The notes under the pieces are model-generated. The model was given only the letters and a program-made list of their open reading frames with translations, did not search any database and was not told the origin of the DNA. Positions 3,048-62,989 of a stretch of 64,000 bases of DNA are shown here, piece after piece. Both the position numbers and the translations under genes were made by a program. The DNA comes from Notamacropus eugenii. Its lineage: Eukaryota > Chordata > Mammalia > Diprotodontia > Macropodidae. The stretch spans positions 58,079,256 through 58,143,255 of the forward strand of contig NC_092876.1 in NCBI RefSeq assembly GCF_028372415.1. Reading direction: 5' to 3'. The first letter of the stretch is position 1, and the number at the start of each line of letters is the position of its first letter.

Positions 3048-3146
3048 TAGAATCATAGAACATCACAGCCTTAAAAGACCTTAGAACACAGAATGTCGGA
3101 GCTGGGAGGGCCCTTAGAACACAGTATATCAGAGTTAAAGGAGGCT
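3048..3146 (+). repeat. 33-bp minisatellite family, locus 1 (about 3 units)
   Basis: Units of the TTAGAACACAGAATGTCGGAG / CTGGGAGGGCCC type in direct array. It abuts MIR-type sequence on its right, in keeping with origin in a retroelement tail. Confidence 0.75.
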
Positions 3147-3154
3147 TAATGTAG

Positions 3155-3412
3155 AATTTTAAATTGTATAACTCTGGGTAAATCACTTAACCTCTCAGCT
3201 TCAGTTTCCTCATCTATAAAATGGGGGTGATAATGTCACTTGAGATAAAATACTTAAGGTAATTTGTATACCTTAAAGTTCTATGTAAGTGATATTTTTC
3301 AAAAGGGCAAAAAGAGAAATGATAAATTACTTGAGCTCATACAGGGAGTAAGCAGCAGAAGCAGAGCTTGGATATCCTGAGCTGGTGATCAAGTGTACTT
3401 TCTATCACGCCA
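3155..3412. mobile_element. MIR-type fragments, one + (3155-3300) and one - (3318-3412)
   Basis: The left piece reads CTTAACCTCTCAGCTTCAG then TTTCCTCATCTATAAAATG on the + strand. The right piece is the complement of a tRNA-like SINE head. Confidence 0.6.
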
Positions 3413-4449
3413 TATTTGTCCCTCTATGTTAGAGGCTGGAGGAAAAGGGGTAAACTTTCCCATCCAGTCCTTCCAGGACAGATCGGGCCCTTGGGTTCCC
3501 CAACCCACCATCCTCTGGCCCTAAGCCAGCCTATCTGCCTCCTTCCATTTTTAGTAATTATGCAAATCTCTCGTCCCAGGCTAAGCAAAGCAGGGGAGGA
3601 AGCCTGGGCCTCATTTGGCCTGCTCTCTCGGAGCTTGACAGGATAAGATAGGCAAACGACAGATTATACTGGCCCACTCTGGTAAACACAAGTTTAATTA
3701 CTTTTTGAGAGAGAGGCATGGAAAAAAGATGAAATAAATTCCCAATCGGCTCTGTCAAGGCAGGAAAGTTAAGCGCGTAGAAAGTAAAGAGTCAAGTGTA
3801 CTGGACTCTTAACTATAGCGAGTTGGGAGGAGGGCCTGAGGGAAGGGAACTGATGAGAATGGAAAGATGTTACGCTGGAGAAAAACACTGCTGGCTGAGA
3901 CATACCCATCTTCCAGCAAAGCAAGGAAATCAAAGCAGTAGAGCTTCAGGGACTGCAAGGCAACAGTTGTAGCCAAGAATCTGAAGTAGGGCACCAGCCC
4001 CGCTTCCAAACCAGGGCTCCCAAAAGCCAAGCATAAAAACTGAGGTTCTCTCTTGGTGCTTGAGATGAACACAACAGCACTTGGAGAAAACCTGGTGGAG
4101 GCTTAAAAAAAATATATCACATTGGATAGGAATTCAATGAAAAGAAGCAATGACAAATACAAGGAATTCAGAGAAGTTTAGGAAGATTTGTGTGAATTGA
4201 AACAGACCCAAAAAAACCAATATTCACAACTGCAATACAAATTTAAAGATCACTAAAAAGGAAGTTGAACTCTGCATAAGGGAAAAATTCAGTGAAGGGC
4301 TAACGATGATTAAAGTTAGCACTTCTCACCCCTTTCTCCCTCACTGAAAGAGAGGCTTAGGGGGCTGGCTTTTTGTTTGGTTGTTGTTTTGGTTTTTTAT
4401 TTTGTTTTTCGCTTAATTCTCCTTTGTTACAGGGAAGGATTCAATCAGG
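3413..4449. other. Repeat-poor intergenic sequence
   Basis: No convincing gene. Short ORFs here show no family motif. It contains the candidate regulatory block at 3540-3780. Confidence 0.5.
3540..3780. promoter_or_regulatory. Candidate conserved non-coding element (POU/homeodomain motifs)
   Basis: Repeat-free block with a composite TAATTATGCAAAT (homeodomain core plus octamer) at about 3555-3567, GATAAGATA near 3643 and TTTAATTAC near 3693. Such clusters are typical of developmental enhancers, but motif presence alone is weak evidence. Confidence 0.3.
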
Positions 4450-4770
4450 CAAGGTGTGTATGTTCATCCTTTGTTGCCAAAGAAGACCATGACATCAGAG
4501 AAATAATGACATGACTTACCCTTGACTTTGTTTTGAGTGAGGGAGGGCTGTGCAGGTCACCAGCCTCACTTCTCCTCCAGAGCCATCTGAATCCAGAGAC
4601 CAGATATTCATCAGGATGACTGGAGATGGCCCATGATGAAGCAATTGGGGTTAAGTGACTTGCCCAAGGTCACACAGCTAGTGAGTATCAAGTGTCTGAG
4701 GTGAGATTTGAACTCAGGTTCTTTTGATTCCTGCACTGGTGCTCTATCCACTGCACCACCTAGCTGCCTC
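4450..4770 (-). mobile_element. tRNA-derived SINE, long form, reverse orientation
   Basis: The tRNA-like head (complement of GCTCTATCCACTGCACCACC) is at the right end. The body carries ACCATGACATCAGAG and ATTCATCAGGATGACTGG, which recur at 24550-24722, so it is a dispersed family. Confidence 0.8.
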
Positions 4771-4904
4771 CATCAGGCAAAATAGTGAGAATACAAAGAC
4801 AAAAATCAACAATAAAATGTGTTTTTTAAACAGAAAAACCTCATGGCATTGAGGAAAGAGGAGATAAAAGGATTGTGTTCAGATCTGAGTGCTGTATTTT
4901 AGGA

Positions 4905-5152
4905 AGGACAGTGATAAGCTAGCACAGCATATAAAGCACCCACCCTGGAGTCTGGAAGACCTGAGTTCAAATCTGTCCTCATACCCTTACTGGCTCTATG
5001 ACCTTGGGCAAGTCACTTAACCCTGTTTGCCTTTATTTCCTCATCTGTAAAATGAGCTGGGGAAAGAAATGGTAAAACCACTGCAGGATCTTTGCCGAGA
5101 AAACACCAAATGCGGTCACGAAAAGTCAGACACAACTGAAACAAGTGAACAG
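4905..5152 (+). mobile_element. MAR1/MON1-type tRNA-derived SINE
   Basis: Complete order of SINE blocks on the + strand: tRNA-like head, GAGTTCAAATCTG (B box-like), GGGCAAGTCACTTAACCC, TTTCCTCATCTGTAAAATG, and the 3' tail with AAACACC..GGTCACGAAAAGTCAGACAC. Confidence 0.85.
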
Positions 5153-5269
5153 AAATGCAGAAGACAGCGATGAGATAGTAAAGGGGAGACAAGATTGGAC
5201 CATGTGAGGACTGGCTGAAGGAAGCATTTAGCTAAAGAAAAGACATCAGGGAAACTGAAGAGTTGACTT

Positions 5270-5590
5270 TAACTGCTCCAGACATTTTCTCTGACTGTCC
5301 CACCATGCCTGGAACGCTCTCCCTCCTCTGCTCCTACTATAGACCTTCCAATTAAACTGCCACCTTGGACAGGAAGCCTTCCCCACCTCTCTTAATTCCA
5401 ATGTCGTCCCCCTCTTAATTATTTCCTATTAATCCTCTAGATAGATTGCTTGCATATATTTGTTCACCTGTTGTCTTCCCCCATTAGATTGGAAGCTCCT
5501 TATGGGCAGAGACTATCTTTTGTCTCTTTTTGTATTCCCATAGTGCCTGGCACATAGTATGGGCTTAATAAATATTGATTGATTGATCAA
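5270..5590 (+). mobile_element. L2 LINE 3' end
   Basis: L2 3' hallmarks in order: CATGCCTGGAACGCTCTCCC, CAGGAAGCCTTCCC, GATTGGAAGCTCCTTATGGG, GTGCCTGGCACATAGTA, and terminal TTAATAAATATTGATTGATTG. Confidence 0.8.
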
Positions 5591-5776
5591 TTTGAAGGGT
5601 TATCACAGGAAAGATGGTGGAGGGAGAAGCGTTTGACTTTACTTTGCCTTGCTCCAGAAGTAGGAGCGATAAGTAGAAAAGACAGATTTAAGCTCGATGT
5701 CTGGAAAATATTTCCCACCAATTAGAGTGATCACTAAGTTCCTGGGATCCCCCCTCACTGGAGGTTTTCAAGCAGG
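5591..5776 (+). mobile_element. CR1/L3 LINE 3' fragment
   Basis: Resembles the CR1/L3 3' region: AGCTCGATGTCTGGAAAATA, CCAATTAGAG, then TCACTGGAGGTTTTCAAGCA. It is broken off by the SINE piece at its right. Confidence 0.65.
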
Positions 5777-5925
5777 CACTCACTGGCTGTGTGACCCTGG
5801 GCAAGTCACTTCGCCCTGTTTGCCTCAGTTTCCTCATCTATAAAATGATCTGGAGAAGGAAGTGGCAAACCACTCTAGAATCTCTGCCAAGAAAAATCTC
5901 AAACGGGGTCACAAAAAAAGGAACC
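5777..5925 (+). mobile_element. MAR1/MON1-type SINE, 3' part
   Basis: Starts within the CTGGCTGTGTGACC block and runs through the CCACTC..ATCTCTGCCAAGAAAA and GGGGTCACAAA tail. Confidence 0.8.
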
Positions 5926-6516
5926 TTACAATCTAATAGCCAATTCAAACCTGAGGAGAGGATGGGGACAAATTGTCGGAATCTTAACATAGGGAGTCCC
6001 TACTTCGGTAAGGCTTCACTCCATTGTCTCTGAGATCTTTTCCAAAGTCCTATGACATTTCTCCATCCCCATGAAAATCTGCAGAAAGGTTCTTCCTGCA
6101 GGTTTTCTGATCAGGGGTGTACCAGAGTGAGCTTAAAACCAGATCACTAGAACCAATTGTTAAAATTTCATTGCGAGCCTTTATACCTAAGAAATTAGCA
6201 GATACAAAAAATCAATTTATTGCTTTATTGATTGTCTAGACTTAAGAAAGTGGTGGATGAAATGCTTATGACGCAGATTAAGCTTAAAAGTATGTCTTGC
6301 ATATTTTTCCAGCTAGTTGAACTCGAACTCGAACTGAACTGCACATGTAACAACTGACCCCTTGAAAACTTTGAGAACTCTTCAATGTTCCTTGGTACTT
6401 CTCCCACGTTCAGTGGAGGTTGTTAGAGGACAAACAGTTAAGCACATTATCAGTCTAGCCCTTATCCAGCAAGGACAATTACCAGACCATGCTAGAAACA
6501 TCAATCCAGTAGCAAA
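5926..6516. other. No recognised gene; AT-rich unassigned sequence
   Basis: Contains a short GAACTC/GAACTG direct repeat near 6320-6345 and nothing else I can name. Confidence 0.45.
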
Positions 6517-6955
6517 AGCTGGAGAGGCCTTTAGAACATAGGATGTCAGAGCTGGGAGGGCCCTTAGAACACAGAAAATCAGAGCTGGGAGGGCCCTTAG
6601 AATGCAGGATGTCAGAGCTGGGAGAGTCCTTAGAATATAAAATGTCAGAGCTGGGAGGAGCTTTAGAATACAGGATGTCACAGCTGGGAGGGCCCTTAGA
6701 ATGCAGGATGTCAGAGCTGGGAGAGTCCTTAGAATATAAAATGTCAGAGCTGGGAGGGCCTTTAGAACACAGGATGTCAGAACTGGGAGGGCCCTTAAAA
6801 CAGAATGTCAGAATTGGGATAGCCTTAAAACACACAATATCAGAGCTGGGAAGGCTCCTAGAACACAGACTGTCAGAGGTGGGAGGAAATCTTAGAATAT
6901 AGAATGTCAGAGGTGGGAGAACCTTAGAACACGGAAAGTCGGAGCTGGGAGGGTG
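6517..6955 (+). repeat. 33-bp minisatellite family, locus 2 (about 13 units)
   Basis: Tandem GTCAGAGCTGGGAGGGCCC-type units. Units 2-3 (from 6576) recur as units 5-6 (from 6675) with a 99-bp shift, and most of that pair is base-identical. Units become more divergent towards 6955. Because 33 is a multiple of three, the array reads as 11-residue repeats (MSELGGPLEHR-like) in open frames; this is not evidence for a protein. Confidence 0.9.
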
Positions 6956-7721
6956 CTTGAGTTCCAGCTGGTGCCCCTGAACAAGTCCCTTCTCTAGAAG
7001 GGTTTTTCTGCTCAGAACAGGCGAGTGAACACAGTCAGGAAGTGACAGAGCAGGGGTTCCACTCTGATTACCCCTCCCCACCACCTCTCACTGTCTAGTA
7101 CTGACCCTGGGGCTCAACTCCTACAGTTTAAGGAGTCGCTGCTGAGATCCTGCTTCTGTTTGCCCAGGGCAAGGTTTGAAAATTGTTCCCCCTGTGCCTG
7201 TCCTTACCCACTGATGGCTTCCTACTTTCACTGTAACATATTGATTTAGGACAAAATAAATTCCTGTGGGCCATGAAGAGCTGGAGGAAGGCATGTAAGG
7301 GAGGGAAGCTTCCTCCTTCTCTGGGTTTTAATTTTCACAACTTCTCTCTCTCACTCTCGAGGTTTTTCAATGCTTTTCAAAGCACCCCCAGCTCTCCTGC
7401 GTGGAATGGACATCAGCCTCTCAGGACAAACCTCACCATACAAGGGAGGCAGCAGGAGGCAGGGCCATGAGCACCTGCAACAGGACCTGTCCTTACTCTC
7501 CCACTTACTTGGTGTGGGAACCCTTCAACACCATCGACCAAATGAGCTGCCTCTCATCGCTGACATGAATGGCAAAGGCTTCAAATGACACCTCTGAAAG
7601 GTAGTCAGTGCCCTGTCCTAAGGATCGGGTGATGGAGAAGACATGAGGGACAACACAGCTCCTGGTCCAGGAGAAAGCACTTACTGTACTGGCTGATTGA
7701 CTGTCTCTTAGATTTAAAGCT
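6956..7721. other. No recognised gene
   Basis: Unique-looking intergenic DNA. The short open frames at about 7270-7590 show no recognisable domain. Confidence 0.5.
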
Positions 7722-7858
7722 TAAAGGGACCTTAGAACCATTAAGCCCAACATCCCTCAACCCATCTTACAGACTTTGAAACTGAGACACAGGGATGCTA
7801 AGTGATTTGCCTAAGATCACATAGCCAATTTGTGTTGGAGGCAAGATTTGAACCCTAA
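7722..7858 (-). mobile_element. MIR-type SINE with CR1-like tail, reverse orientation
   Basis: Complement of tail, CTCAGTTTC block and CCTAAGATCACATAGCC region. Its own tail (AAAGGGACCTTAGAACC) is one partial copy of the minisatellite unit, in the opposite orientation to the array that follows. Confidence 0.7.
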
Positions 7859-8170
7859 GCTCCCCTCCCAGCTGACATTCTGTGCTCTAAGGAGCCTCTC
7901 AGTTCTGACATCCTGTATTCTAGGGACCCTCCCATCTCTGACACCCTGTGTCCTAAGGGCCCTCCTAGCTCTGACATCCTGTGTCCTAAGGACCCTCCCA
8001 TCTCTGACACCCTGTGTCCTAAGGGCCCTCCTAGCTCTGACATCCTGTGTTCTAAGGGCCCTCCCAGCTCTGACATCCTGGGTTCTAGGAGCCCTTCCAG
8101 ATCTGACATTCTATGTTATAAGGGCCCTCCTAGCTCTGACATCCTGTGTTCTAAGGTCCACTCTATGGTC
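7859..8170 (-). repeat. 33-bp minisatellite family, locus 3 (about 9 units), inverted
   Basis: Units read CTCTGACATCCTGTG..CTAAGGGCCC on the + strand, the complement of loci 1 and 2. Bases 7925-7984 recur at 7991-8050, a 66-bp (two-unit) higher-order period. Confidence 0.9.
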
Positions 8171-8494
8171 TAATATTTCCCGTTCTGAGGCCCCTCTCAG
8201 CTGCCACATTCTATATTGTCAAATTTCTTCAAGTTTTAACATTCCATGATTCTACCAAATATATTGTCAGCCTCAGCTGACACACTAGTCGGTTTTGTTC
8301 AACTGTTTGGTTTTTCTCTTTTATTACATTTTATTCTTTGTTGTAGGGGATAGCTCTCTGGGTAGGGTATAGGAGGAATGTATTTGGAAATGAAGGTAAC
8401 ATAAAAACAAAATAGACCTATAAAAACTAAAAAGATTTATAAAGATCTATAAAAACATGCCATGGTACGTTTCTATGATTCTCTATTGATAGAG
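8171..8494. other. No recognised feature
   Basis: AT-rich sequence with a short AAAGATTTATAAAGATCTAT-type direct repeat near 8430-8450. Confidence 0.45.
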
Positions 8495-8752
8495 AATTTT
8501 AGGTACGTGTTCAGTCATTTTTAATTCTGTCTGACTCTTCGCAAACCCTAGTTAGGGTTTTCTTGGCAGTAGTTTGCCATTTCCTTCTCCAGCTCATTTT
8601 ACAGATGAGGAAAATTGAGGCAAACAGGTTTAAGTGACTTACCCAGGGTCACACTGTTAGTAAATATGTGAGGCTGGATTTGAACTAAGGAAGAGGAATC
8701 TTTCTGACTTCAAGCCCTGCCCTCTATTTACTGCCCCACCTAGCTGACCCTG
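8495..8752 (-). mobile_element. MAR1/MON1-type SINE, reverse orientation
   Basis: Full block order in complement: GTTCAGTCATTTTTAATTC, GGGTTTTCTTGGCAG, CCATTTCCTTCTCCAGCTC, GGTCACACTGTTAG, and head CTGCCCCACCTAGCTGACCC. Confidence 0.85.
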
Positions 8753-8844
8753 AAATTAGAGGTCCACAGAATATCAAATTTGGAAGGGAGCTCAAAAACC
8801 AGGTAGTCCAATGCAGACCTCTCCAAGCTGTTTCTCCATCACTA

Positions 8845-8860
8845 CTCAACCAATGGTCAT
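8845..8860. repeat. Target-site duplication, left copy
   Basis: CTCAACCAATGGTCAT; matches 9925-9940 at 15 of 16 positions. Confidence 0.8.
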
Positions 8861-9272
8861 TCCTTTGGTTTTGTTTTATAATTTCTTGATTTTTCATAAA
8901 GTCATTAGCTTCCATCTGCTCTATTTTAATCTTTACGGAATTATTTTCTTCAGTGAGCTTTTGACCCTCCTTTTCTGTCTGGTCAATTTTGCTTTTTAGG
9001 GCATTCTCTTTTTGGATCTCTTTAGCCATTTGAGTTAGTTTATTTTTTAGTGTTATTTTCTTCAGCATTTTTTGGGTCTCCCTTAGCAAACAGTTGACTG
9101 GGTTTTCAGAATTTTTATGCATCCCTCTCATTTCTCTTCCCAATTTTTGTTCTACTTCTCTTACTTGATTTTCAAAATCCTTTTTGAGCTCTTCTATGGC
9201 TTGAGACCAATTCATATTTTTCTTGGAGGCTTTGGGTTGAGGAGCTTTGACTTTGTTGTCATCTGTCTGCAT
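8861..9272 (-). pseudogene. L1 ORF1, N-terminal part
   Basis: Encodes a coiled-coil segment with KELKKDFENQVRE-like and QMEANDFMKNQEI sequence closely matching the ORF1 at 88-1188 (NDFMRNQEI there). No RRM or C-terminal domain. The ORF1 start upstream appears shifted relative to the HAL1-like copy. Confidence 0.75.
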
Positions 9273-9924
9273 GTTTTTGTGTTCCTTCTCACCAAAGTAA
9301 GATTCTATAGTCTGATTCCTTTTTCAGTTTTTGTTCATTTCTCCAGCCATTTACTTGACTTTTGAGCTCTTTGTCGAGGTAAATCTCTGCTTCCAGTGGG
9401 AGTGGGGGGTGTACTGTCAACCACTCCATTCCCCCACAATCTGTGGGCCTAGAGCTCCAGAAACAGTGGCTGTCTCTGCCCCTGTGGCTGCTGTGGCTGC
9501 CATGGGTTCTTCCACCCCCTTCCCCCTCTGCCGCCCTGGGGCTGGAACCAGACCCCTCCACTCTCCCACACTGGTCCCACAGGCTTTTTATACTGACCAT
9601 CCAATTTGTCCTCGGTGTTTTGGGGTCCTGAAGTTTGGAAACTGCCACAGGTATGAGAGATTCAGTCTCCCCAAGGCCTGCTCAGGCCTGTCTGTGCCAG
9701 TGCAGCACACGTTGCACTGTGATCTGCTCCCAGTGGCAGTGTGATAGACACTTCCCAGTGACCTTCCAGGCTGTCTTGGGCTGCAGATTTGCTTCACTTC
9801 ATCATTTTGTGGGTTATGCAGTTCCAGAATTTCTTTAGAGCCATTGTTTACAGGTATGTGGCTGGGCTTGGGGGCAGTACTCTAGAAAGTGCATGCTGTT
9901 ACTCTGCCATCTTGGCTCCACCCC
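8861..9924 (-). mobile_element. L1 with its 5' end, truncated at its 3' end inside ORF1
   Basis: Read on the - strand, the element starts at 9924 with GGGGTGGAGCCAAGATGGC, the classic mammalian L1 5' start. It continues through a GC-rich 5' UTR and the first part of ORF1, then stops at 8861 after an A-rich stretch (ACAAAACAAAACC). Everything after the ORF1 coiled coil is absent, yet the copy sits in a 16-bp target-site duplication. Internal priming at, or early polyadenylation of, the A-rich ORF1 segment would explain this; L1 copies normally lose the 5' end instead. Confidence 0.8.
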
Positions 9925-9940
9925 CTCAACTAATGGTCAT
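9925..9940. repeat. Target-site duplication, right copy
   Basis: CTCAACTAATGGTCAT; one mismatch to 8845-8860. Confidence 0.8.
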
Positions 9941-10190
9941 GCTGCCTTTACATGAAGACTTTTCTTTGAAGGGGGAACCCTGTACCCACAAGGCCCATTC
10001 AGCTTCTGACTAGCTCTCATCATTAGGAGGGGTTTTTTCTTGGCATTATGCCTAAATCTGCCTTTTTGTAACTTTCACACTTTATTTTCAGTTGTACCCT
10101 TTGGGGCCAACCAGAGCAAATCTGATCCTTCTTTCCTATTACAGCTTTTCAGATACTTAAGGACAGAGACCAATTAAAAGTAAATAGATA

Positions 10191-10390: not shown

Positions 10391-10441
<51 letters not shown>

Positions 10442-16550: not shown

Positions 16551-17034
16551 TCATTTCTCTCCCCCTCGGCACACAGGATTTAAGGAGAAGCAACCTCTCA
16601 GTGCTCCAGGGGTTCATCTAAACATGATTAAACAGCCATTAGGGCTTCTCGTTCTGAAAATGGAGATTTACAGACTTCCCAAACCTCTATTTAAATGCAA
16701 ATGTGGCGTTTTTTCCGCCTGGAACCATGGAAATGAAGAGCATTGAAGACTGCAGCTTGTCTCACACTGGCCCCAGCTCTGCCTGGTTGGACAACCCCAG
16801 CACTGGCATTTAATCTCCCTGCCTGAGTAAAGCTTCAGGGGGTAAGCGCCCATCAGAGCCTGGCAAGAGCCAGATGATGGACCTGGGATAATGGATAAGG
16901 GCATGGGGTTTCCATTTCCTCTCTCAAACCATCCATCACTCCCTCCCTTTCCTGCCCAGAGGATAGGGTTTGAAGGCACAATTCCCTCTTCCCCAAACTG
17001 AGGAAGGAAAATTCCTGGGATTTTAGGATCAGAG
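16551..17034. other. Repeat-poor block, candidate regulatory sequence at 16590-16870
   Basis: No repeat signature. TATTTAAATGCAAAT (octamer) lies at 16688-16702 and CCTGGAACCATGG near 16719. No codon structure supports an exon. Confidence 0.35.
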
Positions 17035-17265
17035 GGGGAAAGGGCCTTAGAACATAGAACATTAGAGTTGGAAGCGACCTTAGAATGTAAAATGTTAGAG
17101 CTAGGAAGAGCTTTAGAATAGAAAAAAAGAGGAGGGAGGGTTTAGAACATAAAATATCAGGGCTGGAAGGGACCTTGGAACATAGAATGTTAGAGCCAGG
17201 AAGAGTTTTAGAATAGAGAATGTCAGAAAGCAAAGGGTCTTAGAACATACAATGTTAGAGCTAGA
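17035..17265 (+). repeat. 33-bp minisatellite family, locus 4 (about 7 divergent units)
   Basis: Repeated CCTTAGAACATAGAA..TTAGAGCTGGAAG units. Units are far more diverged than at 62.2 kb, so the array looks old. Confidence 0.8.
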
Positions 17266-17400
17266 AGAAGCCTAACAGATAGGAAACTAAAGCCCACACT
17301 GAGCCTTAGACTAAGTGACTTGAAGGAGAGTAAGTGGTAGGATAGGTACTTGGACCGCATCTCCCTTCTGTCTCCAAATTCAGTGCTCTTGTTATACAAA
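17266..17400 (-). mobile_element. MIR-type SINE, reverse orientation
   Basis: AACAGATAGGAAACTAAAG, AAGTGACTTGAAGG, then TCCAAATTCAGTGCTCTTG. Here the array runs straight into SINE sequence in the orientation expected if the tail was the seed. Confidence 0.65.
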
Positions 17401-23740: not shown

Positions 23741-24549
23741 TAGGGAGAGACTTGAGGCAGGCAGACCATCCCAGCATGAGGAGATGAGGGTCTGCACCAG
23801 GACGGAGGCAGTGTCAGAGGAGGGAAGGGGGCAGATTTGAGAGATGATTTAACATAGAAAGAACAAGACTTGGCAAGTGACTGAATTTGGAGGGCGAGAA
23901 GAAAGAGCTGAGAATTACACCTAGTTGTGAGCCCAGGTGACTGGGAGCACAGTAGTGCCTTTTGCCCTACGGTGTGCAGAGGACTGTACTGGGATAGAAA
24001 CAAAATTTAGAGAAGGCAAAGTTCCTTCCCTCCAGGCTAGCAGGGGAATAAGACACAAGCCCGGATACTTATTCTGTATTATATTATGTGATGAGGGCTT
24101 TTGAAAGCACCAAAGTGCTCTGGGAAATTGTAGGGAGAAGGCCCTAAGTGATCAGGGAAGATGCCCTGGAGGAGGTGACATTCTCTAGAATCCCACGATC
24201 TCAGAGTTGGAAGGGATCCAAAAGTCATCTAGTACCATAGCCCAACCTGCTGGGCTTAAAAGTCAGGCTCAGAATTCAGTAGGTAAGACAGAGATGGGGG
24301 CAAAGGTGTGGCTGGCTTTAGGAACAGGGTAGGTAAAGTCTGAGAGACAAGAAAGACACCGTCATTCTGCCTGTCCTGGGAACAGAGAGGCGTCAGGTGT
24401 CTAGGAGCACAGTGTCCAAGGAGGGCCTTTTTGACCTCTCTACAAAGATCCTCGGCTCAAAGAACTCCCCTCCCACTTCTGCCTGCCGCCCCATCTGGTC
24501 TATCTTCTCTCCAAGAGTGAGATAAAGGAGAAACACTATGAGACTTGTG
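23741..24549. other. No recognised gene; faint LINE-like remnants
   Basis: A single reverse-oriented MIR/CR1-type tail (CTCAGAGTTGGAAGGGATCC) lies near 24199. Nothing else is identifiable. Confidence 0.4.
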
Positions 24550-26344: not shown

Positions 26345-26544
26345 AGAGATGTCAGAGCTGGGAGGGCCCTTAGAACATAGAATGTCAGAGCTGGGAGGGC
26401 CCTTAGAACATGGGATGTCCAAACTGGGAAGGCCCTTAGAACCCAGGATGTGAGAGCTGGGAGGGACCTTAGAACTCAAGATGTCAGAGCTGGGAAGGCC
26501 CTTAGAACACGGAATATCAGAGCTGGGAGGGCCCTCAGAGCACA

Positions 26545-26545
<1 letters not shown>
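26345..26545 (+). repeat. 33-bp minisatellite family, locus 5 (about 6 units)
   Basis: Units of GTCAGAGCTGGGAGGGCCC type with moderate divergence. It ends directly against a (GT)n tract. Confidence 0.9.

Positions 26546-26547
<2 letters not shown>

Positions 26548-26574
<27 letters not shown>
26548..26574. repeat. (GT)n microsatellite
   Basis: About 13 GT units directly after the minisatellite. Confidence 0.9.
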
Positions 26575-31439: not shown

Positions 31440-31617
31440 AGGAGTAGAACAGAAAATATCTGAGCTAGAAGATGCTTTAGAACAGAGAGTGTGAGAGCTA
31501 GGGAAGGGGCCTGAGAACCCAGGATGTCAGAGCTGGGAGAAGCTTTAGAAACCAGGATGTCAGAGCTGAGAGGAGCTTTAGAATACAGGATGTCAGAGCT
31601 GGGAGGGCCTTACACTA
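31440..31617 (+). repeat. 33-bp minisatellite family, locus 6 (about 5 units)
   Basis: GAGCTAGAAGATGCTTTAG, then GTCAGAGCTGGGAGAAGC and GTCAGAGCTGAGAGGAGC units. Ends against a reverse MIR. Confidence 0.85.
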
Positions 31618-34675: not shown

Positions 34676-34830
34676 TCATAGCCAGAGCTGGGAGAAATCT
34701 CAGAGACCATCTAATCCAGATCTCTCATTTTACCAATGAAGAGACTGAGGTCCAAAGTGGTCCTGATTTACCCATGGTCAGTAAGAGGCAGAGTTGGGCA
34801 CTGAACCCAGGTCCTTGGTGGAGGGGCACA
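34676..34830 (-). mobile_element. MIR-type SINE with single tail unit, reverse orientation
   Basis: AGCCAGAGCTGGGAGAAATC is one copy of the minisatellite core in its native place as a SINE tail. ACCATCTAATCC and AGAGACTGAGGTCC follow. Confidence 0.75.
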
Positions 34831-38819: not shown

Positions 38820-38995
38820 GTCATAGAATATCAGGGCTGGAAAGACCCTTAGAACAGGGGATGTCAGAGCTGGGAGGGCCCTTAGAGCACAGAAAGTCAG
38901 GGCTGGGGGACCCTTAGAACACAGGATGTCAGAGCTGGGAGGACCCTTAAAACCCAAGATATCAGAGCTGGAAAGGGCTTTAGAATAGAGATTAG
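38820..38995 (+). repeat. 33-bp minisatellite family, locus 7 (about 5 units)
   Basis: GTCAGAGCTGGGAGGGCCC and GTCAGAGCTGGGAGGACCC units. Confidence 0.85.
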
Positions 38996-39125
38996 CTAGA
39001 ACCTTAGAGGTCATCCCCTAAAATCCCATCCTCATTTCATCAGGGGAGGTGACTGAGGCCCAAAGACACAAGGTCATTTGCTCTCCATCACACCATCAGT
39101 AACAGATGTGGGGCTAGAATTTTTT
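38996..39125 (-). mobile_element. MIR-type SINE, reverse orientation
   Basis: Continues directly from the minisatellite: CTTAGAGGTCATCCCC, GAGGTGACTGAGGCCC. This is the native order SINE tail then body, so the array is an expanded tail. Confidence 0.7.
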
Positions 39126-44279: not shown

Positions 44280-44760
44280 CTATCACTATGTTATAATTGA
44301 GGAAAGTGAGGCACAGAAAAATGATGCAAGGGATTCTCAGTCAAGGAAATTCCCTCTACTAATGGAGGTAAATGGTTCCTCTGTGACTTAAAGATTAAGA
44401 GAGACGCCTAGAACCCTGAGAAGTTCAGTGACTTGCCCAGAGTCCCATATAACCAATATGTGTCAGAGAGGAGACTTGAACCCAGGTCTTCTTGTCTCCA
44501 TTTATAGATGAGAACTGATTATAAGTATGAGCACTACTTTTATCCGTTTCCAAATAGGAAGGAGAAAGCATCAGTGCAGTCTAGTCTCAGAAGACCAAGA
44601 TCAAATCCCAGCTCTGCCACTTGGTACCTAGGTGACCTTGATCTAATCATGTGTCCTCTCTGGGCCTTAATTTACCTGTTTGTACAATGAAGGGATTGTA
44701 CTAGATGATTCACGTCTAAGGTCCACTCCTACTCTAAATCTGTGATTCTATGAGATGAGT
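44280..44760. mobile_element. MIR-type SINEs: - (44280-44510) and + (44560-44760)
   Basis: First: AAGTTCAGTGACTTGCCC, ACTTGAACCCAGGTC. Second: CAAATCCCAGCTCTGCC and tail ACTAGATGATTCACGTCTAA, a single-copy version of the minisatellite seed region. Confidence 0.7.
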
Positions 44761-46029: not shown

Positions 46030-46585
46030 AGAGGGATCTCAGATAGCTATCATCTAGTCTATTTTACAAAGAAGGAAACTGAGGCCCAAAAAGAGAAAGT
46101 GAACTGCCCAGGGATTTCAGGGAAGATGATGCCTGGTAAATCTGCTCCAAACCCCAACCCATGACAACATCCCTCCTCCTCACGCCTGTGCCTGACTGCA
46201 GCTCCCAAAACTAACCAGAAAGGAAAGATAACAATATGAAGACTTCAGGCTGGGAGCCCGGAGATGATTTCCAGTTCTAGCTTTGACTCATCTCACAGAA
46301 TCACAGATTTAGAACAGAAATGGACCTTAGATATAAATCATCTAATACAAATCCTTCATTGTACAAACAGGTAAACTGAGAGGAGACAAGACTAGATCAA
46401 GGTCACCTAGGTACCAAGTGGCAGAGCTGGGATTCAACCTAGGTCTTCTAAGAATAGATCCCAAGCTCTTTCCAGAGAAATATGCTGTCTCGGACTTTGT
46501 CACTTAGTCTCTGGGCCTCAGGGTCCTAATGTGTAAAATGTGGGGATTGGGTTAGGGGATCACTGAGGTCCTAGAGTATCTTATG
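46030..46585. mobile_element. MIR-type fragments: - (46030-46140), - (46295-46490), + (46491-46585)
   Basis: GGAAACTGAGGCCCAAAAAG; ACAGAATCACAGATTTAG with GAGGTAC-type blocks; CTCTGGGCCTCAGGGTCC. Confidence 0.65.
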
Positions 46586-46589: not shown

Positions 46590-46858
46590 AAGAATTCACC
46601 TAACTCTAACATCTTATGTTTTAAGATCTTTCCTTTTCTAATATTCCATGTTCTAAGGCCCCTTCCATCTCATACATGCTAGGTTCTAAAATCCTATATT
46701 CTTAGCTCCATTCTAGCTCTGTCATTTTTTTTGCTCTAAGATCCTTCCCAGCTCTGACATTCTAGGTTCTAAGGGTCCTCCCAGTTCCGACATTCTAGGT
46801 TCTAAGGCCCCTCTCAGCTCTGACATTCTGGGATCTGGCATTCTATTTTCTAACATTC
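46590..46858 (-). repeat. 33-bp minisatellite family, locus 8 (about 8 divergent units), inverted
   Basis: CTAACTCTAACATCTTATG, then CTCCCAGTTCCGACATTCTA and CTCTCAGCTCTGACATTCTG. It follows a + MIR whose tail is in the same sense. Confidence 0.8.
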
Positions 46859-55574: not shown

Positions 55575-56065
55575 TACCCATGAACAGTTAATATTTCTCC
55601 AATTATTTAAATCTGATTTTAAGGATTTTTAGAAATAATTTTGTTCATATAGTTTTGGGGATTGTTTTGGCAGGTGCGTTCCCATGAATTTTATACTGTT
55701 TAGAGTTGTTTTACTGTTATACTGTTTTATACAATATTATATAATATACAATTATACATAATACAATATGCAGTTATTATACTGTTTAGAATTACTTACT
55801 ATTTCTTCTTGCAGGGTTTTGTTTGTGATATATCATAATATTGATTATTTGTGTGGATTTATTTTAAATTCTGCTACTTTGCAAAAATTATTGTTTCAAC
55901 TAACTTTTTAGTTGAGTCTTTGGAATTTTCCAAGTATATCATCATATCATCTGCAAAAGCAGATAGTTTTATTACCTCATTCCCTATTCTGAGTCCTTCT
56001 TTTTCTTTTTCTTCTCTTACTGCTATTGCTAAGATTTCCAATGCAATATTGAATAATATTGGTAC
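55575..56065 (-). mobile_element. L1 ORF2 reverse-transcriptase fragment
   Basis: The - strand frame reads PILFNIALEILAIAVREEKE, then RIGNEVIKLSAFADDMMIYLE, the direct counterpart of human L1 [20 protein letters not shown] and LFADDMIVYLE with the catalytic FADD intact. The fragment is too short and isolated to be functional. An AT-rich expansion lies at 55680-55800. Confidence 0.9.
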
Positions 56066-56425
56066 ATCTTTGAGCAAATAAGTCTGAATATTATAAATAC
56101 CCAAATTAACTACACTGGACATATGAAGGAAGACACTCCATGTATCTAGAGAAAAAATTAATAAGGAGAAGTATGAGCAGAATGGTTTTACATATGCATA
56201 TACATTTGTATCTAAATAGTAAAGGGAGGGGAGGAGAAAAAATTTTTTAAAATAAATTTATATGATAACCTTATTATATATTTTAAAAGAATGGCAAGCT
56301 TCACATAATAGATTTGCAGTTTCATGTGCAATCATCTTTTTTATTACACTGTGTTATGGAAATGCTTGTTTTAGTCCATAAATTAAAAATTAAATCAATA
56401 AAACTTTTAAAAAAGTAAAAGAGGA
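56066..56425 (+). mobile_element. A-rich LINE 3'-end-like sequences, family unresolved
   Basis: Two successive ends: one to about 56262 (GGGAGGGGAGGAGAAAAAAT), one to about 56415 (TGTGTTATGGAAATGCTTG, then TCAATAAAACTTTTAAAAAA). Confidence 0.45.
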
Positions 56426-56429
56426 AACA

Positions 56430-56640
56430 GAAGCCTAGAAAGAACAAATAACTCAGGATTGTGACATCCTATCTATCTAGGTCATCCAGGGCAAATCCTT
56501 CATTTTTATAATTGAGAAAATTGAAGTTTAGGTAGGTTAGGGTTAAAAGTGATCTATCCAAGGTCATACAGGCAGGAAATAGTCAAGGAGGAATTCAAAC
56601 CCCTGACATTGACTTCTGAATCTGTCAAGAGATTTTTCTC
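56430..56640 (-). mobile_element. MIR-type SINE, reverse orientation
   Basis: AAGGTCATACAGGCAGGAAA, GGAGGAATTCAAACCCCTG. Confidence 0.65.
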
Positions 56641-57557: not shown

Positions 57558-60017
57558 ATGAGCGACAGCAGCTCTGAGCCCTGGGACTGGCATTTGGAAA
57601 TGCAGTTTACTGGAAAGCTCGTGTTCTCTGCTGCTGCCCTGCTGCTGGGGACTCTCATATACAGACTGTACAAGTACTGGCCGGCCCGGGACCCACCTAG
57701 GGGTGGCACAGCAAAAGCTGATGTCACTGCCACTGAGGAGCCCGAGGTAGCAGGCCAGGTAGATTCTGCTAGCACCTCACCCAGAGCTCAGCTGCCAGGC
57801 CTCAGTCGGCGGCGACAGGTCATCAGGGAGGAGGGAGTACAAGGTAACCCAGCTTTGTGGAATGGCCAGCCAGGAAGTGCTGGTGGGGCCTCTGACACCA
57901 AAGCCAGAGGCAGCCTGGACCTTGGAGATAGGCATCCCGAAGAGAACAGAGGGGCACACTTCAAGACTGAAGAGCAACACCCTGGAAAACTCCTGGTCTG
58001 GGACTGTCTGGGAGAAAAAGGAATCGGACAGGGTAAGAACTGTGACTATGAACTTGAAAGCCCCCAGCCTGGACTTGCTCAAGATGATAATGAAACAGAC
58101 TGCCCCAGTGACTCATGGCAGGAGCCTGGGCTCCTCCTAGACTGTATCAGGGGGCAGAGGAAGGAGGAGATCTCTGATTCTGGCAGTAAGAAGGTTGCCT
58201 GTGCCGCAGGTTTGGGGGACATGAATAGGAGCTGGGTCTTCACTCAAACTGCTGGGGTCAGCCAGGAGGGTGTGGGGCTTATCAGGGCCACCTCAGACAT
58301 GGGCCTGGCTGTCAGCCAGCATGCCAGGGAAGCAGATACCTCTTATGTCTTCTCTTCCCTGGCCAGGGCCCAGGTAGAGGAGAACTTTCTTGGGGAGCAG
58401 ATGCTGAAAGGAAGAGTTGGGGGGCCAGGGGAGGCACCTGCCAGTCCTGGCCTAAAAGGGAAAATCTATGACTACTATGTGGAGTCTACCTCCCAATCCA
58501 TCTCCAGAGACATGCTGGCCCCAGGAGCCAGCACCCCTGGGATCCTTGGAGGGATAACTGTGCCTCAGGGCTCACCCTTGCTCCCCAGTTTTGGGAGGCT
58601 TTCAGCTCCACCTCAGAGCAGGTTCTCTGATACCAGTTCCTTGACTTCACCAAGCTGTGCCCATCCTGAGGACAATGTTAAGGATAGATGTGAGAGCGTC
58701 CTTTCCGTTCAGAGTCCCTCTTTGCCACCTGGGTCTGGCATCAGCCGGAAGAACAGTTTTCTTCAAATCGCAGAGAACCCAGAGTTCCAGCTGCAGCTAC
58801 ACAACACGGGGACCTCATCCTCCAGTGACATCCAGACAGCCTTCCACTCATCTGCAGAGTCTCCAGATCTCAACCCAGCTGCAGCCAGTCTGGAACCTAA
58901 GGTGGAGCTGGTAGCTGGGACCAACTTCTTTCAGCTCCCCCTGGTCCCTGGGGCTGCTCAAAACACCCACCTGGACCTAGGCAACTGTTACGAAGTGTTG
59001 AGTCTGGCCAAAAAGGAAAAGCTGGATGCCCTGAAAGAGGCAGCCTACAAGGTAATGAGTGATAACTATCTCCAGGTCCTTCAAAGCCCCGACATCTATA
59101 GTCGTCTGAGCGGGGCTGAACGGGAGCTGATCCTCCAGAGGCGGCTCCAGGGGCAGAAGTACCTGGTGGTGGCAGATGTCTGCCCCCAGGAGAGCACTGG
59201 CCGCCTCTGTGCCTACAATAACGAGCAAGATACCTGGTGGCCCCTTGCCAGCCTACCCCCAGAGGCCACATCCCGGGGTTGTGCCATCTGTAGTCTCTTC
59301 AATTATCTCTTTGTAGTGACTGGGTGCCAGAGAGTTGGGGGGCAAGCCTCCAACAGGATGTTCTGCTACAACCCTCTGACAGGCATCTGGAAGGAGATGT
59401 GCCCTCTGAACCAGGCACGGCCCCACTGCAAACTTGTGGTCTTGGATGGGTACATGTATGCCATCGGAGGTGAATGCCTGTACACAGTGGAACGCTACGA
59501 CCCTCGCCAGAACCGCTGGACCTTCATGGCGCCCCTGCCCAATGACACCTTCGCCTTGGCCCACACAGCTACGGCTTGCGATGGTGAGATCTACGTCACA
59601 GGGGGCACCCTGCGTTACCTGCTGCTTCGCTATTCCAGGCAGGAAGACCGCTGGCGCGCCAGCCCCACGGCGGGTGGCAAGGACCGGACAGCTGAGATGG
59701 CGGCCGTCAATGGCTTCCTCTACCGCTTTGACCTCAACCGCAGTCTGGGCATTGGGGTCTATCGCTGTAGTGCCCGGACTCGCCTCTGGTACGAGTGCGC
59801 CACTTACCGCGTGCACTACCCAGCTGCTTTCCAGTGTGCAGTGGTGGACAACCTCATCCACTGTGTGGGCCGCCAGTTCCACCTCCGCTTCCTGGCCGAC
59901 TACGTTTCCCCCCACTTCCTTTCCAATGAGCTCCAAGGCTTCCCATCTCCACAGGGCACCCTCATACCCACGGTCCTGGTACTACCTGCCCCCAATATGG
60001 CACAGACTAGGGTGTAG
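57558..60017 (+). CDS. KLHDC7A: Kelch domain-containing protein 7A
   Basis: An uninterrupted 819-codon single-exon gene; human KLHDC7A is also encoded by one exon and is about 777 residues. The start is chosen because MSDSSSEPWDWHLEM lines up residue for residue with human MFPRGAEAQDWHLDM, and A at -3 favours initiation. Residues about 20-36 (KLVFSAAALLLGTLIYRLY) form a predicted single membrane anchor. Residues 40-460 are Ser/Pro/Gly-rich and probably disordered, with conserved islands (MNRSWVFTQTAGVS, GKIYDYYVESTSQ, NSFLQIAENPE). About 472-530 is a BACK-like helical block (LDLGNCYEVLSLAKKEKLDA). About 535-800 hold degenerate kelch repeats (YMYAIGGE, IYVTGG, ERYDPRQNRW). There is no BTB domain. 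The molecular function is poorly known; a protein-binding role for the propeller is inferred from the fold. The tail QGTLIPTVLVLPAPNMAQTRV is very close to human. Confidence 0.97.
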   Translation: MSDSSSEPWDWHLEMQFTGKLVFSAAALLLGTLIYRLYKYWPARDPPRGGTAKADVTATEEPEVAGQVDSASTSPRAQLPGLSRRRQVIREEGVQGNPALWNGQPGSAGGASDTKARGSLDLGDRHPEENRGAHFKTEEQHPGKLLVWDCLGEKGIGQGKNCDYELESPQPGLAQDDNETDCPSDSWQEPGLLLDCIRGQRKEEISDSGSKKVACAAGLGDMNRSWVFTQTAGVSQEGVGLIRATSDMGLAVSQHAREADTSYVFSSLARAQVEENFLGEQMLKGRVGGPGEAPASPGLKGKIYDYYVESTSQSISRDMLAPGASTPGILGGITVPQGSPLLPSFGRLSAPPQSRFSDTSSLTSPSCAHPEDNVKDRCESVLSVQSPSLPPGSGISRKNSFLQIAENPEFQLQLHNTGTSSSSDIQTAFHSSAESPDLNPAAASLEPKVELVAGTNFFQLPLVPGAAQNTHLDLGNCYEVLSLAKKEKLDALKEAAYKVMSDNYLQVLQSPDIYSRLSGAERELILQRRLQGQKYLVVADVCPQESTGRLCAYNNEQDTWWPLASLPPEATSRGCAICSLFNYLFVVTGCQRVGGQASNRMFCYNPLTGIWKEMCPLNQARPHCKLVVLDGYMYAIGGECLYTVERYDPRQNRWTFMAPLPNDTFALAHTATACDGEIYVTGGTLRYLLLRYSRQEDRWRASPTAGGKDRTAEMAAVNGFLYRFDLNRSLGIGVYRCSARTRLWYECATYRVHYPAAFQCAVVDNLIHCVGRQFHLRFLADYVSPHFLSNELQGFPSPQGTLIPTVLVLPAPNMAQTRV

Positions 60018-60069
60018 AGATCCCCTTATTATTTCGGAGGGACTCCCTCTTAGCCATGGAACAGTGGAA

Positions 60070-60260
60070 AGAGTATGTACTCCAGATTCAAAAGACCTGG
60101 GTTTGAATCTTGCGTCTGGCATGTGCCAGCCTGTGATCTTGGGGGAGTCCTTGCCCTTTTTCCAGCCTCAGTTCTCTCATCTGTAAATACAATGAACAAT
60201 AATAATCCTGGAGTTACCTACTGTCCAGGGGGGTTGTGGAGCATGGACCTTGTAACCCTG
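60070..60260 (+). mobile_element. MIR-type SINE in the KLHDC7A 3' UTR
   Basis: GGGTTTGAATCTTGCGTC, CTCAGTTCTCTCATCTGTAA. Confidence 0.65.
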
Positions 60261-60889
60261 AAAGCCCTGTAGAATGTGAGTTTGTTTAATACTTAGAGCA
60301 TCTGTAATTTCTTTGATGGTGGTACTCCTTTCCCTGGTGCACATCCCAGATTTTTTCTATGGCTTAGCAAATGATCTCTAGGCTTTGTTATGGCTAAGGG
60401 CATTCCTGTTTTTCCACTACCCTGGGCTTGAGCGTCTCCAAACAGAACTGAACTGGTTCTCAGTAACAGAGGTAAGGTTTGAAACTGATTCTGCAGTAGA
60501 AGCCCTTCTGGCTCCATAGAACACCAGGCAGGTAAATCTCCCTTTCGGAGTTAGAAGAACCACGTTCAAGTCCTACCTCCCAAAGTAACTTTGGGCAAGT
60601 CAGTTCCGTCAGCTGTAGAATGAGGGTGGTTGGTCTCTTCGATCTCTGAGGTCCCTCCTCTGTGGGTCTTGACAGATTTTCGGCTACTAGCATTGGTAAT
60701 CTTCAAGAATCTAGGGCCACCCCCACCCCAGCCCAGGCCTTGACAAGGCATCTTGTGAGGTTGGAGTCTTCTCCCTGCCACTAACTCTGTGGTCCCTTTT
60801 ACCCCTCAGAGCTTCAGGTACACTAATCTTCCAAATGGGTATGATGTTCATTCCCCACAAGATGGTGCTCTGAGAGTCCCCAAACCTGA

Positions 60890-60895
60890 AATAAA
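60890..60895 (+). terminator. Polyadenylation signal AATAAA for KLHDC7A
   Basis: A canonical hexamer, with TTTGTGTTGTGTG (GU-rich downstream element) 33-46 bases on. First good signal after the stop codon. Confidence 0.65.
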
Positions 60896-60910
60896 CTTTC
60901 ACTGAACATA

Positions 60911-61489
60911 GAATTAGGAAGCCCCTATTTGTGTTGTGTGCAGAGACTGCCTGGAGTCCTGAGGACAACTGGGTTGTTTTAGAAAAAGCCTTGAACCTGT
61001 TCAAATTGGGTTCTGCCATTTACTCTTCCCATGAGACATTGGGCAAGTGACTTGACCTTTCGGGATCTCAGTTTCTTCATTTGTAAAATGAAGTCTTTTA
61101 AGGTCCTTTCCAGGTTTAGGACTATGATTCTATGACTGAGTTTAGTGTGAAGAAGACCAACCTGGGTGTAAATTCTGCCTTGTTCACCAGATGTATGATT
61201 TTGGTCAAGTAATTTAACCTCCACATGCCTCTGGCAATTCCCTGGGTCTTAGCTACTAAGTCATGGATTGGCTGCCATCTTAATAGGTTGGCAGAGATAG
61301 TTTCCATACTGGGAGTTTCCAGCAGGAAATACCAGATCATTTGTATATTCTCATGTGCAAACCAAATGCTGCGTAGGTAGCTGGAGGACATTTTAAGTTT
61401 AGATAGGGGACTAATCTCTGTCCTAATGAACTTTACAGTCCAATAGGTGGATCCAACCCACATCTTTGGCTGTGATGTCATGAAATAGA
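60911..61489 (+). mobile_element. MIR-type SINE (60985-61135), second MIR-like piece (61140-61235), and unassigned sequence
   Basis: CATTGGGCAAGTGACTTGAC, CAGTTTCTTCATTTGTAAAA, tail GTCTTTTAAGGTCC; then TTGGTCAAGTAATTTAACC. Confidence 0.65.
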
Positions 61490-61725
61490 ACAGAATCTTG
61501 GACTTGGAGTTAGGAAGATCTGACTTCAAGTTCTTCTTTACATACTTATAAGCTGTGTGAGACTGGGAGGGTCACTTAAAATCACAGCCTCAGTTGCCTC
61601 ATTGGTAAGTTGGGGATAATAACACCTACATTTCAGGCTTGTTATGAGGCTCAAAGGAGGTAATATTTGTAAAGAACTTGACCAAACTTAAAGCACAATG
61701 TGAATGTTAGCCATTACTATTTTCT
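61490..61725 (+). mobile_element. MIR/MAR1-type SINE
   Basis: TTGGACTTGGAGTTAGGAAG, CACTTAAAATCACAGCCTC, ACACCTACATTTCAGGC. Confidence 0.7.
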
Positions 61726-62218
61726 CAGGTTTTAACTGGTTTTCTGGTATAAACTGACATGAGAACTGGGGCCACAATTTGCTTCTCTGCCCTGTCATAA
61801 CTGGAAGTATCTTATTTGTATAACTACCAGAAACATAGGTGACCAGTTTGGGGATTGAAGAATGTTGAGGAAGTGGCCAACAGCCTAGCCACCAGTGAAT
61901 CCAGCTGATAGACCAGTAATAGAGTGTGGTCCCCAGGACTGCCCACACTCATGGACACACACAGGTGGGAAGGTAGCAAATGTTCTGGGTCGAGGTGGCA
62001 TGAGAGAGGACCAGAGCTCCAAGGAAGCCAATTTATAGGAAAATCCACCTAGAGGGAGTGTAAGGTGAAGAAATCTCCCACTGTATTGGGTGTTTCCCTT
62101 GGGAAATTCCCCCAGATTCAAATATAGCAAAATCCTGAAATGACTAAGCCTCAACTCCATTATCTTCCACTAAAACTATCATGTTAATAAGTAATCAAGT
62201 GTACATCAAAGGAGCATC
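61726..62218. other. No recognised gene
   Basis: Overlapping - frames here have no domain. Confidence 0.45.
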
Positions 62219-62989
62219 AAATGTCAGAGCTGGGAAGACCCTTAGAACAAAGAATGACAGAGCTGGGAGGGCCCTTAGAACACAGAATGTCAGAGCTGGG
62301 AGGGCCCTAGAACACTGAATGTCAGAGCTGGGAGGGCCCTTAGAACACAGAATGTCAGAGCTGGGAGGGCCCTTAGAACACAGAATGTCAGAGCTGGGAG
62401 GGCCCTTAGAGCACAGGATGTCAGAGCTGGGAGGGCCCTTAGAACACAGGATGTCAGAGCTGGGAGGGCCCTCAGAACACAGAATATCAGAGCTGGGAGG
62501 GCCCTTAGAACACAGGATGTCAGAGCTGGGAGGGCCCTTAGAACACAGGATGTCAGAGCTGGGAGGGCCCTTAGAACACAGAATGTCAGAGCTGGGAGGG
62601 CCCTCAGAGCACAGGATGTCAGAGCTGGGAGGGCCCTTAGAACACAGAATGTCAGAGCTGGGAGGGCCCTTAGAACACAGAATGTCAGAGCTGGGAGGGC
62701 CCTTAGAGCACAGAATGTCAGAGCTGGGAGGGCCCTCAGAGCACAGGATGTCAGAGCTGGGAGGGCCCTTAGAACACAGAATGTCAGAGCTGGGAGGGCC
62801 CTTAGAACACAGAATGTCAGAGCTGGGAGGGCCCTTAGAACACAGAATGTCAGAGCTGGGAGGGCCCTCAGAGCACAGGATGTCAGAGCTGGGAGGGCCC
62901 TTAGAACACAGAATGTCAGAGCTGGGAGGGCCCTTAGAGCACAGGATGTCAGAGCTGGGAAGGACATTAGAACACAGGGTGTCAGGGTG
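62219..62989 (+). repeat. 33-bp minisatellite family, main array (about 23 units)
   Basis: The most homogeneous member of the family. One unit near 62306 is 32 bp. The variant CCCTCAG replaces CCCTTAG in every fourth unit (third C at 62471, 62603, 62735 and 62867), giving a 132-bp higher-order repeat. Open frames of 224-277 codons run through it in three frames, all 11-residue repeats, because the unit is 33 bp. No retroelement body remains on either side. Confidence 0.97.

Follow-up and report, generated by a model that had tools for sequence, protein, structure and literature searches.

A 33-bp minisatellite family corresponding to the 3' tail of a probable CORE-SINE in Notamacropus eugenii, with arrays clustered in limited chromosome segments

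A family of 33-bp tandem repeats has been analyzed in a 64,000-nucleotide stretch of the Notamacropus eugenii genome (C15:58079256–58143255, hereafter the window) and compared with other loci of the same assembly (3.445 Gb in 254 contigs, labelled C1, C2, etc., the longest among those seen being 762 Mb); all comparisons were made inside this one assembly. The unit of the family is the 3' tail of a short interspersed element (SINE), arrays are joined to bodies of this SINE more frequently than by chance, share one tandem junction, and are concentrated in a small part of the genome. A first-pass annotation of the window had placed the unit at nine positions, approximately 3.05, 6.5, 7.9, 17.0, 26.3, 31.4, 38.8, 46.6 and 62.2 kb, and all of these hold it, in both orientations, the clusters at 7.9 and 46.6 kb being on the minus strand. 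At three or fewer mismatches the core of the unit has 52 matches in the window, with 0.02 expected from shuffles. Tandem Repeats Finder (TRF) identifies seven 33-bp arrays; two clusters lack a TRF call but align to the unit, that at 3.05 kb, which with about 1.6 units is hardly an array, and that at 17.0 kb, made of about 7.5 degenerate units. Being 33 bp in size and arranged head-to-tail by TRF, the unit is in the minisatellite range of 10–100 bp. The clusters and the SINE copies of the window are as follows, with divergence from the common unit obtained by threshold-free alignment, for which shuffled arrays give a baseline of 36%.

3072–3124, plus strand: about 1.6 units of the 33-bp repeat, 1.9% from the common unit, core match at 3095
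6517–6953, plus strand: array of about 13 units, identified by TRF, 11.4% from the common unit
7863–8209, minus strand: array of about 10 units, TRF part 7863–8156, 11.8% from the common unit
17027–17275, plus strand: degenerate AT-rich tail-like array of about 7.5 units, 14.9% from the AT type and 22.1% from the common unit
17275–17390, minus strand: SINE body running into the 17.0-kb array on the 3' side of the body, body model positions 13–129, E 1.7e-8
26348–26550, plus strand: array of 6 units beside a (TG)n tract, identified by TRF, 7.4% from the common unit
31445–31606, plus strand: array of about 5 diverged units, TRF (three overlapping rows), 18.5% from the common unit
34684–34815, minus strand: SINE copy whose tail is unexpanded; full SINE model, E 5.7e-23
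38828–38985, plus strand: array of about 5 units joined to a SINE body, TRF 38828–38975, 10.8% from the common unit
39026–39121, minus strand: SINE body joined to the 38.8-kb array, body model positions 44–142, E 4.2e-9
44579–44739, plus strand: SINE copy with an unexpanded tail followed by octamer-like CTGTGATTCTATGA, full SINE model, E 6.4e-27
46499–46555, plus strand: SINE body (3' part) joined to the 46.6-kb array, body model positions 92–150, E 3.1e-8
46600–46836, minus strand: array of about 7 units with AT and GC types mixed, TRF 46735–46836, 18.5% from the common unit and 17.3% from the AT type
62220–62985, plus strand: the largest and most homogeneous array, 23 units, 94% matches by TRF, 3.3% from the common unit

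The window also contains a kelch gene, seen as one open frame of 819 codons (57558–60014, plus strand; Pfam Kelch_1, E 9e-20) about 2.2 kb before the largest array, which we take to be KLHDC7A. Three further open frames, 52–822 (plus strand), 8727–9323 (minus strand) and 55877–56257 (minus strand), resemble the coiled-coil ORF1 and a piece of ORF2 of what is presumably LINE-1, a long interspersed element (LINE).

The SINE consensus of 160 nt, ending in ...CCTCAGTTTCCTCATCTGTAAAATGAGGAGGATGGACTAGATGACCTCTAAGGTCCCT, was constructed as an iterated profile from an array-side copy in one of the compared loci (L014), with 210 matches in the window and 20 further array loci. Unit matches align to positions approximately 152–184 of the SINE model, that is, to its 3' tail, and 55 of the 77 unit matches in the window also fit this tail end, in agreement with the earlier proposal that the unit derives from a SINE or CR1/L3 tail. 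Read on the SINE strand, the unit is TTCTAAGGGCCCTCCCAGCTCTGACATTCTGTG; the orientation initially given to it is antisense to the SINE, and the array sits at the 3' tail on the SINE's own strand. The consensus contains GGGTTCAAATCC and CCTCAGTTTCCTCATCTGTAAAATG, presumably motifs of the tRNA-related head and the CORE segment. By eye, SINE tails end in octamer-like ATGATTCTATG.

The SINE whose 3' tail makes up the 33-bp unit is probably a CORE-SINE with a LINE3/CR1-type end. We take it to be MIR3/THER-2, in line with published descriptions. The ATGATTCTATG-like endings fit the conserved octamer microsatellite motif that, according to a passage of PMC4316615, is retained in the CR1 3' untranslated region (UTR). 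MIR3/Ther-2 is given an L3 tail in table 1 of PMC3747384, and MIR3 is described as LINE3-mobilised in a passage of PMC2910653. Passages on MIR3/THER-2 in PMC3403934 include copy numbers of 678,295 and 715,973 for two genomes, taken as those of the Tasmanian devil and the wallaby. A scan of Rfam at the gathering threshold gave no match. Four single tails had also been reported in the window; those near 44700 (E 5.8e-22) and 34680 (E 3.8e-17) belong to SINE copies with a body, while those at 24199 (E 0.035) and 51430 (E 0.14) are weak, tail-only matches.

For the analysis of attachment we used the window and 20 loci, with clusters of at least three units considered as arrays and units below the nhmmer cut dropped. 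Two sets of 35 arrays were obtained, with the first and the refined unit model, differing in few members; the counts for attachment and for the terminal octamer are those of the refined one. An array was considered attached if a SINE body in the same orientation (E below 0.01) was located within 100 bp on the expected side. Twelve of the 35 arrays have a correctly oriented body within 100 bp upstream, compared to 2.5 ± 1.5 under random placement (maximum 9 in 5000 runs), so that arrays do occur beside these tails more often than by chance; controls with the wrong side or orientation yield 3, 1 and 1 of 35. Eleven of the twelve attached bodies extend at least to position 129 of the body model, which has 154 positions. 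Within the window the share is three of eight. The direct junctions noted at 17.27 and 39.0 kb are confirmed, with bodies at 17390–17275 and 39121–39026, and the 46.6-kb array is a third case. For three arrays of the window, we manually extended the edges to the limits given by TRF or by eye; the two attached ones among them stay within 100 bp without this extension. At the 5' edge of the 7.9-kb array we observe an adjoining inverted SINE copy (7713–7873; body 7872–7747 on the minus strand, E 2e-21), and a similar inverted neighbour is found in three of the 35 arrays.

The tandem form is remarkably uniform in period. The 33-bp junction has 454 matches (40-mer with up to three mismatches), or 1401 with a shorter 31-mer at up to one mismatch. 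The 34-bp junction, which would be produced by plain duplication of the ATGATTC tail, has just eight matches at up to three mismatches, even though its 31-mer probe is shorter and easier to match, and some of these eight do not resemble true 34-bp junctions. This difference indicates that the tandem form is of essentially one origin, or that one slippage step is very strongly favoured. Moreover, the unit ends in GACATTCTGTG, unlike the AAATCTATG-like end that is the better fit for 18 of 30 unexpanded tails; the ACATTCTATG form fits better in eight, and four tie.

SINE bodies are old, whether or not they are joined to units. In the window and array loci, their divergence from the consensus is 21.7% if a unit follows at a score of at least 16 (n = 11) and 21.8% in the 131 others, and in tail loci found genome-wide it is 20.9% (n = 61). 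The mutual distance of the 11 unit-joined bodies (35.0%) is similar to that of same-sized samples of free bodies (34.0 ± 2.4%). In both comparisons bodies with less than 50 aligned bases were excluded; those scoring 10–15 for the next unit were counted as free in the former and omitted from both groups in the latter. As the 11 unit-joined bodies are ordinary in divergence and pairwise distance, a young array-bearing SINE subfamily was rejected.

On the contrary, array consensuses are nearly identical. In 22 of 34 arrays the majority consensus is the common unit itself, and the mean pairwise distance between consensuses is 3.8%. For the seven arrays of the window, a set selected without regard to similarity, the consensuses differ from the common unit by 3.6% on average. 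Had arrays turned over neutrally and independently of each other since the SINEs inserted, roughly 14% would be predicted (body divergence minus within-array divergence, by our own arithmetic). The combination of old bodies lacking a visible subfamily with near-identical array consensuses suggests that the spread or renewal of the unit came after SINE insertion. If equal age is considered directly, bodies at 21.7% and window arrays at 2–22% from the common unit are unequal as measured, although turnover could mask equal age. The 17.0-kb array is an exception that has stayed with the AT type, being closer to the AT-rich tail-like unit than to the common one. The two forms have four differences, all from A/T to G/C, which in sequence comparison would fit GC-biased conversion in the source; the AT-rich form itself is deduced from the 17-kb array and matches of an AT-richer 40-mer, together with the expected form of the tail.

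The tail is widespread in the genome. The exact unexpanded tail 31-mer has 18 copies on C1, C2, C4, C14, C15 and C23, so the presence of the seed alone does not decide where an array is located. At up to two mismatches there are 1265 matches, and none for the reversed control. A pattern leaving the sequence after the tail start free has 32 copies, 30 of which were read, two of these in the C14 segment described below. Other exact patterns are rare: one copy for a tail pattern of 39 bases, two for a body pattern of 33 bases, and one for an AT two-unit 30-mer. No second unit at a score of at least 12 is found in 63 tail-reaching bodies of the 30 genome-wide tail loci, or in 25 bodies of 20 random stretches, compared to 16 of 149 bodies in the window and array loci, the latter having been chosen for arrays. 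The 99% shuffle score for a second unit is 9; it is exceeded by 20 of these 149 bodies, and two of the 63 genome-wide ones (in loci L061 and L077) reach 10, above this score but below 12.

Arrays, by contrast with tails, are concentrated in islands. Of the 48 genomic copies of the exact two-unit 46-mer, 34 are located in C15:54.2–68.7 Mb, 10 in C14:53.1–71.1 Mb, and four elsewhere. With neighbouring matches merged into loci, 25 of 28 loci fall into C14:51–75 and C15:50–70 Mb, comprising 1.3% of the genome, these segments having been delimited after a first sight of the match positions. For an AT-richer two-unit 40-mer (up to two mismatches) the same segments hold 24 of 64 loci, with other groups on C1, C4, C15:124–133, C23 and C25. 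Just one of 18 unexpanded tails and two of 32 bodies are found there, so that the AT-richer array loci are overrepresented compared to tails and bodies together (24 of 64 against 3 of 50, Fisher p 5.6e-5; for 25 of 28, p 5e-14). Another locus of the same kind lies within 2 Mb for 23 of the 28 46-mer loci and 47 of the 64 40-mer loci, and for none of the 18 tails or 32 bodies, the set sizes being unequal. On C1, tails at up to one mismatch are uniform by the Kolmogorov–Smirnov test (p 0.71). They do show mild clustering at short range, 31 of 68 having another tail no more than 2 Mb away, compared to 20 ± 4.8 under uniformity. The locus counts use only those sets of matches that are complete: all 46-mers, the exact tails, the 40-mers with two mismatches or fewer and, on C1, the tails with at most one.

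In 114,756 bases outside the C14/C15 segments TRF detects no array of the 33-bp family, and all 16 unit matches are the own tail of the SINE by which the locus was found. Inside the segments, 34,262 bases not chosen for arrays contain two small ones (L033:715–807 and L034:919–984, two-copy). Masked GC content is higher in the 20 array loci than in 28 outside tail loci (0.456 and 0.388, p 1e-6). A simple GC explanation of the islands was rejected, as random stretches inside the segments are only slightly GC-richer than those outside (0.419, n = 9, and 0.394, n = 10; p 0.11; a tenth stretch inside, L036, was dropped being mostly N). One array of the C14 island (L026:2704–2860, at C14:61.468 Mb) starts about 40 bp past an ABCA7-like exon and GTGAGT, at the very start of an intron, and no SINE body was detected between the exon and the array. 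We considered, and do not claim, that the islands are former microchromosomes: the ABCA7-like gene in the C14 island and the kelch gene in the window are too thin a basis, and other ABCA-like matches fall outside the C14/C15 segments.

Tail identity, attachment to bodies, a common junction, clustering, and the mismatch in divergence between bodies and units are direct observations; as for the route of spread, we favour homology-directed exchange into resident tails, with a close rival in retroposed array-tailed copies followed by turnover that preserves the consensus. The reading that we tentatively prefer is that of one minisatellite family with a single-origin junction in a MIR3/THER-2-like tail, the units of which then spread at the DNA level into resident tails, mainly in limited segments. 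The junction, ATTCTRTG joined to TTCTAAGG, would essentially go back to a single event, in which slippage probably took place between the octamer at the end of the tail, ATTCTATG, and its start, TCTCTAAGG. Units may then enter or replace the resident tails of old SINE and LINE3 copies via approximately 30 bp of shared sequence, by ectopic gene conversion or reintegration of excised circles, with local expansion and turnover after entry. Such spread would have taken place, or lasted, chiefly in a restricted number of chromosome segments presumably favoured for it. Later homology-directed entry explains the ordinary divergence of the joined bodies. That the unit behaves as an infectious-like repeat, invading the resident tails of ancient SINEs by homology after these had landed, mainly in certain segments, is possible, if less likely than not.

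Several observations weigh against the preferred reading. On the expected side of 23 of the 35 arrays no SINE body is detected; for these arrays short tail fragments have to be assumed as targets. The canonical terminal octamer after an array, considered as a proof of an RNA-born end, is a weak signal: nine of 35 arrays have it on the 3' side and six on the opposite, 5' side, with 5% expected in shuffles. Single units differ by 2–16% from the consensus of their own array (array means), and 20 of the 21 sequences searched for arrays were selected by similarity to the query; since a majority consensus hides private mutations of units, averaging makes consensuses look alike, and the contrast between bodies and consensuses is somewhat inflated on both accounts, although the window arrays show it too. 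Finally, among arrays of at least four units, neighbouring pairs do not resemble each other more than distant pairs do (permutation p 0.83 for less than 5 kb or the same locus, and 0.84 for up to 2 Mb), which argues against short-range conversion, makes the family star-like, and led us to reject local gene conversion between neighbouring arrays. Still, a unit variant, CATTCTCTG, recurs inside single arrays at C15:128.15 Mb and C23:5.80 Mb, being also seen singly elsewhere, e.g., at C15:81.9 and C1:739.1 Mb, and another, CATTCACTG, recurs inside a single array at C14:91.39 Mb; these variants hint at local homogenisation that is not seen in the sample used for neighbour likeness.

The close rival, which we regard as a realistic possibility, is an array-tailed MIR3/LINE3 lineage, the source RNA of which ended in several units owing to tail slippage during target-primed reverse transcription. 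Its insertions would be old and often 5'-truncated to a bare array, kept uniform by match-favouring turnover, and would have survived mainly in recombining segments. The single junction agrees with such a source, arrays without bodies fit 5' truncation, and match-favouring exchange explains both these and the star-like unit consensus with no local structure. The AT or mixed arrays of the window, 15–17% from the AT type, and the GC-type arrays, 2–12% (one 18.5%) from the common unit, resemble a succession of subfamilies, and tail slippage has a precedent in the Gecko SINE, cited in PMC3747384. However, unit-joined bodies form no subfamily and are as diverged as the others, unexpanded tails are widespread while arrays are clustered, and plain neutral turnover would have made consensuses drift about as far as bodies. 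For the same reasons, namely arrays far more clustered than tails and joined bodies that are neither young nor distinct, the spread by retrotransposition proposed in the first-pass annotation is not demonstrated.

The same annotation suggested that each SINE or CR1/L3 tail repeatedly seeds its own tandem expansion. Arrays are indeed joined to tails in the right orientation, and the internal similarity of the tail could favour one slippage step; yet one period dominates (454 against 8 junction matches), units are far more alike across loci than the SINEs supposed to have seeded them (3.8% between consensuses, 35% between bodies), no second unit at a score of at least 12 is found in the 63 genome-wide bodies, and GACATTCTGTG is not the end that better fits most unexpanded tails. 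Clustering together with a single 33-bp junction and near absence of the 34-bp one indicates that tails did not each seed their own array, and we consider repeated seeding improbable. Selection for the unit, e.g., as a binding site in gene-rich segments, whatever the route of spread, might account for near-identical consensuses at unrelated loci and for the array beside the ABCA7-like exon; it is hardly probable, with units scattered around their array consensus, degenerate arrays persisting, copy number and orientation varying, and the binding role hypothetical. Multiplication of arrays by segmental duplication or an assembly artefact, to which their regional clustering could point, is extremely improbable. 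The masked 600-bp flanks of the 35 arrays have nothing in common between loci beyond 30–43 bp, so there were no large duplications, and the joined SINE bodies are 35% apart on average; this comparison of flanks ruled segmental duplication out.

Among known systems, Drosophila has satellites that are dispersed in euchromatin by circles and gene conversion. Like the 33-bp family, they repeat a single unit at numerous euchromatic loci whose flanks are unrelated, but they do not come from the tail of a transposable element (TE). In the Gecko SINE of Aedes aegypti tail repeats are reportedly made during retrotransposition. It shares with the 33-bp family tandem repeats at the SINE 3' end, and is listed in PMC3747384 under slippage retrotransposition (Tu et al., 2004); unlike Gecko, our family shows different divergence of bodies and arrays, and its arrays are regional. 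Minisatellites originating from SINEs are a known kind, according to passages of the reviews PMC6947457 and PMC9659126 and also of PMC3389668. The SINE-derived (GGCAGA)n tandem family of 1998, as entered in both reviews, has similarly grown from a part of a SINE, but its unit comes from within the SINE, whereas the 33-bp unit comes from a LINE3-type 3' tail. According to the abstract of PMC3389668, younger TEs are the more likely source of TE-derived repeats, and these grow by local duplication. They too are transposon sequence turned minisatellite, while in the 33-bp family the SINEs joined to arrays are old and different loci have the same unit. The chicken HinfI repeat (Li and Leung, 2006), in its entries in PMC6947457 and PMC9659126, holds the CR1 3' UTR and a part of ORF2, being thus another case of CR1-clade sequence inside a tandem repeat; unlike it, the 33-bp unit consists of the tail only and is dispersed. 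In searches of an open-access library we have found no report of a MIR3-tail minisatellite. What is unusual here is the mixture of an old widespread seed, one common unit, regional clustering, and bodies more diverged than their arrays.

The family constitutes a natural experiment on the birth and upkeep of minisatellites, in which an identical seed in differing regions has had a differing outcome. If units do travel, tandem repeats would use old SINE tails as landing pads, and one would expect the islands to match regions of high recombination or close nuclear contact. The invading unit would then mark, by its sequence alone, where in the genome dispersed repeats are still engaged in ectopic exchange.

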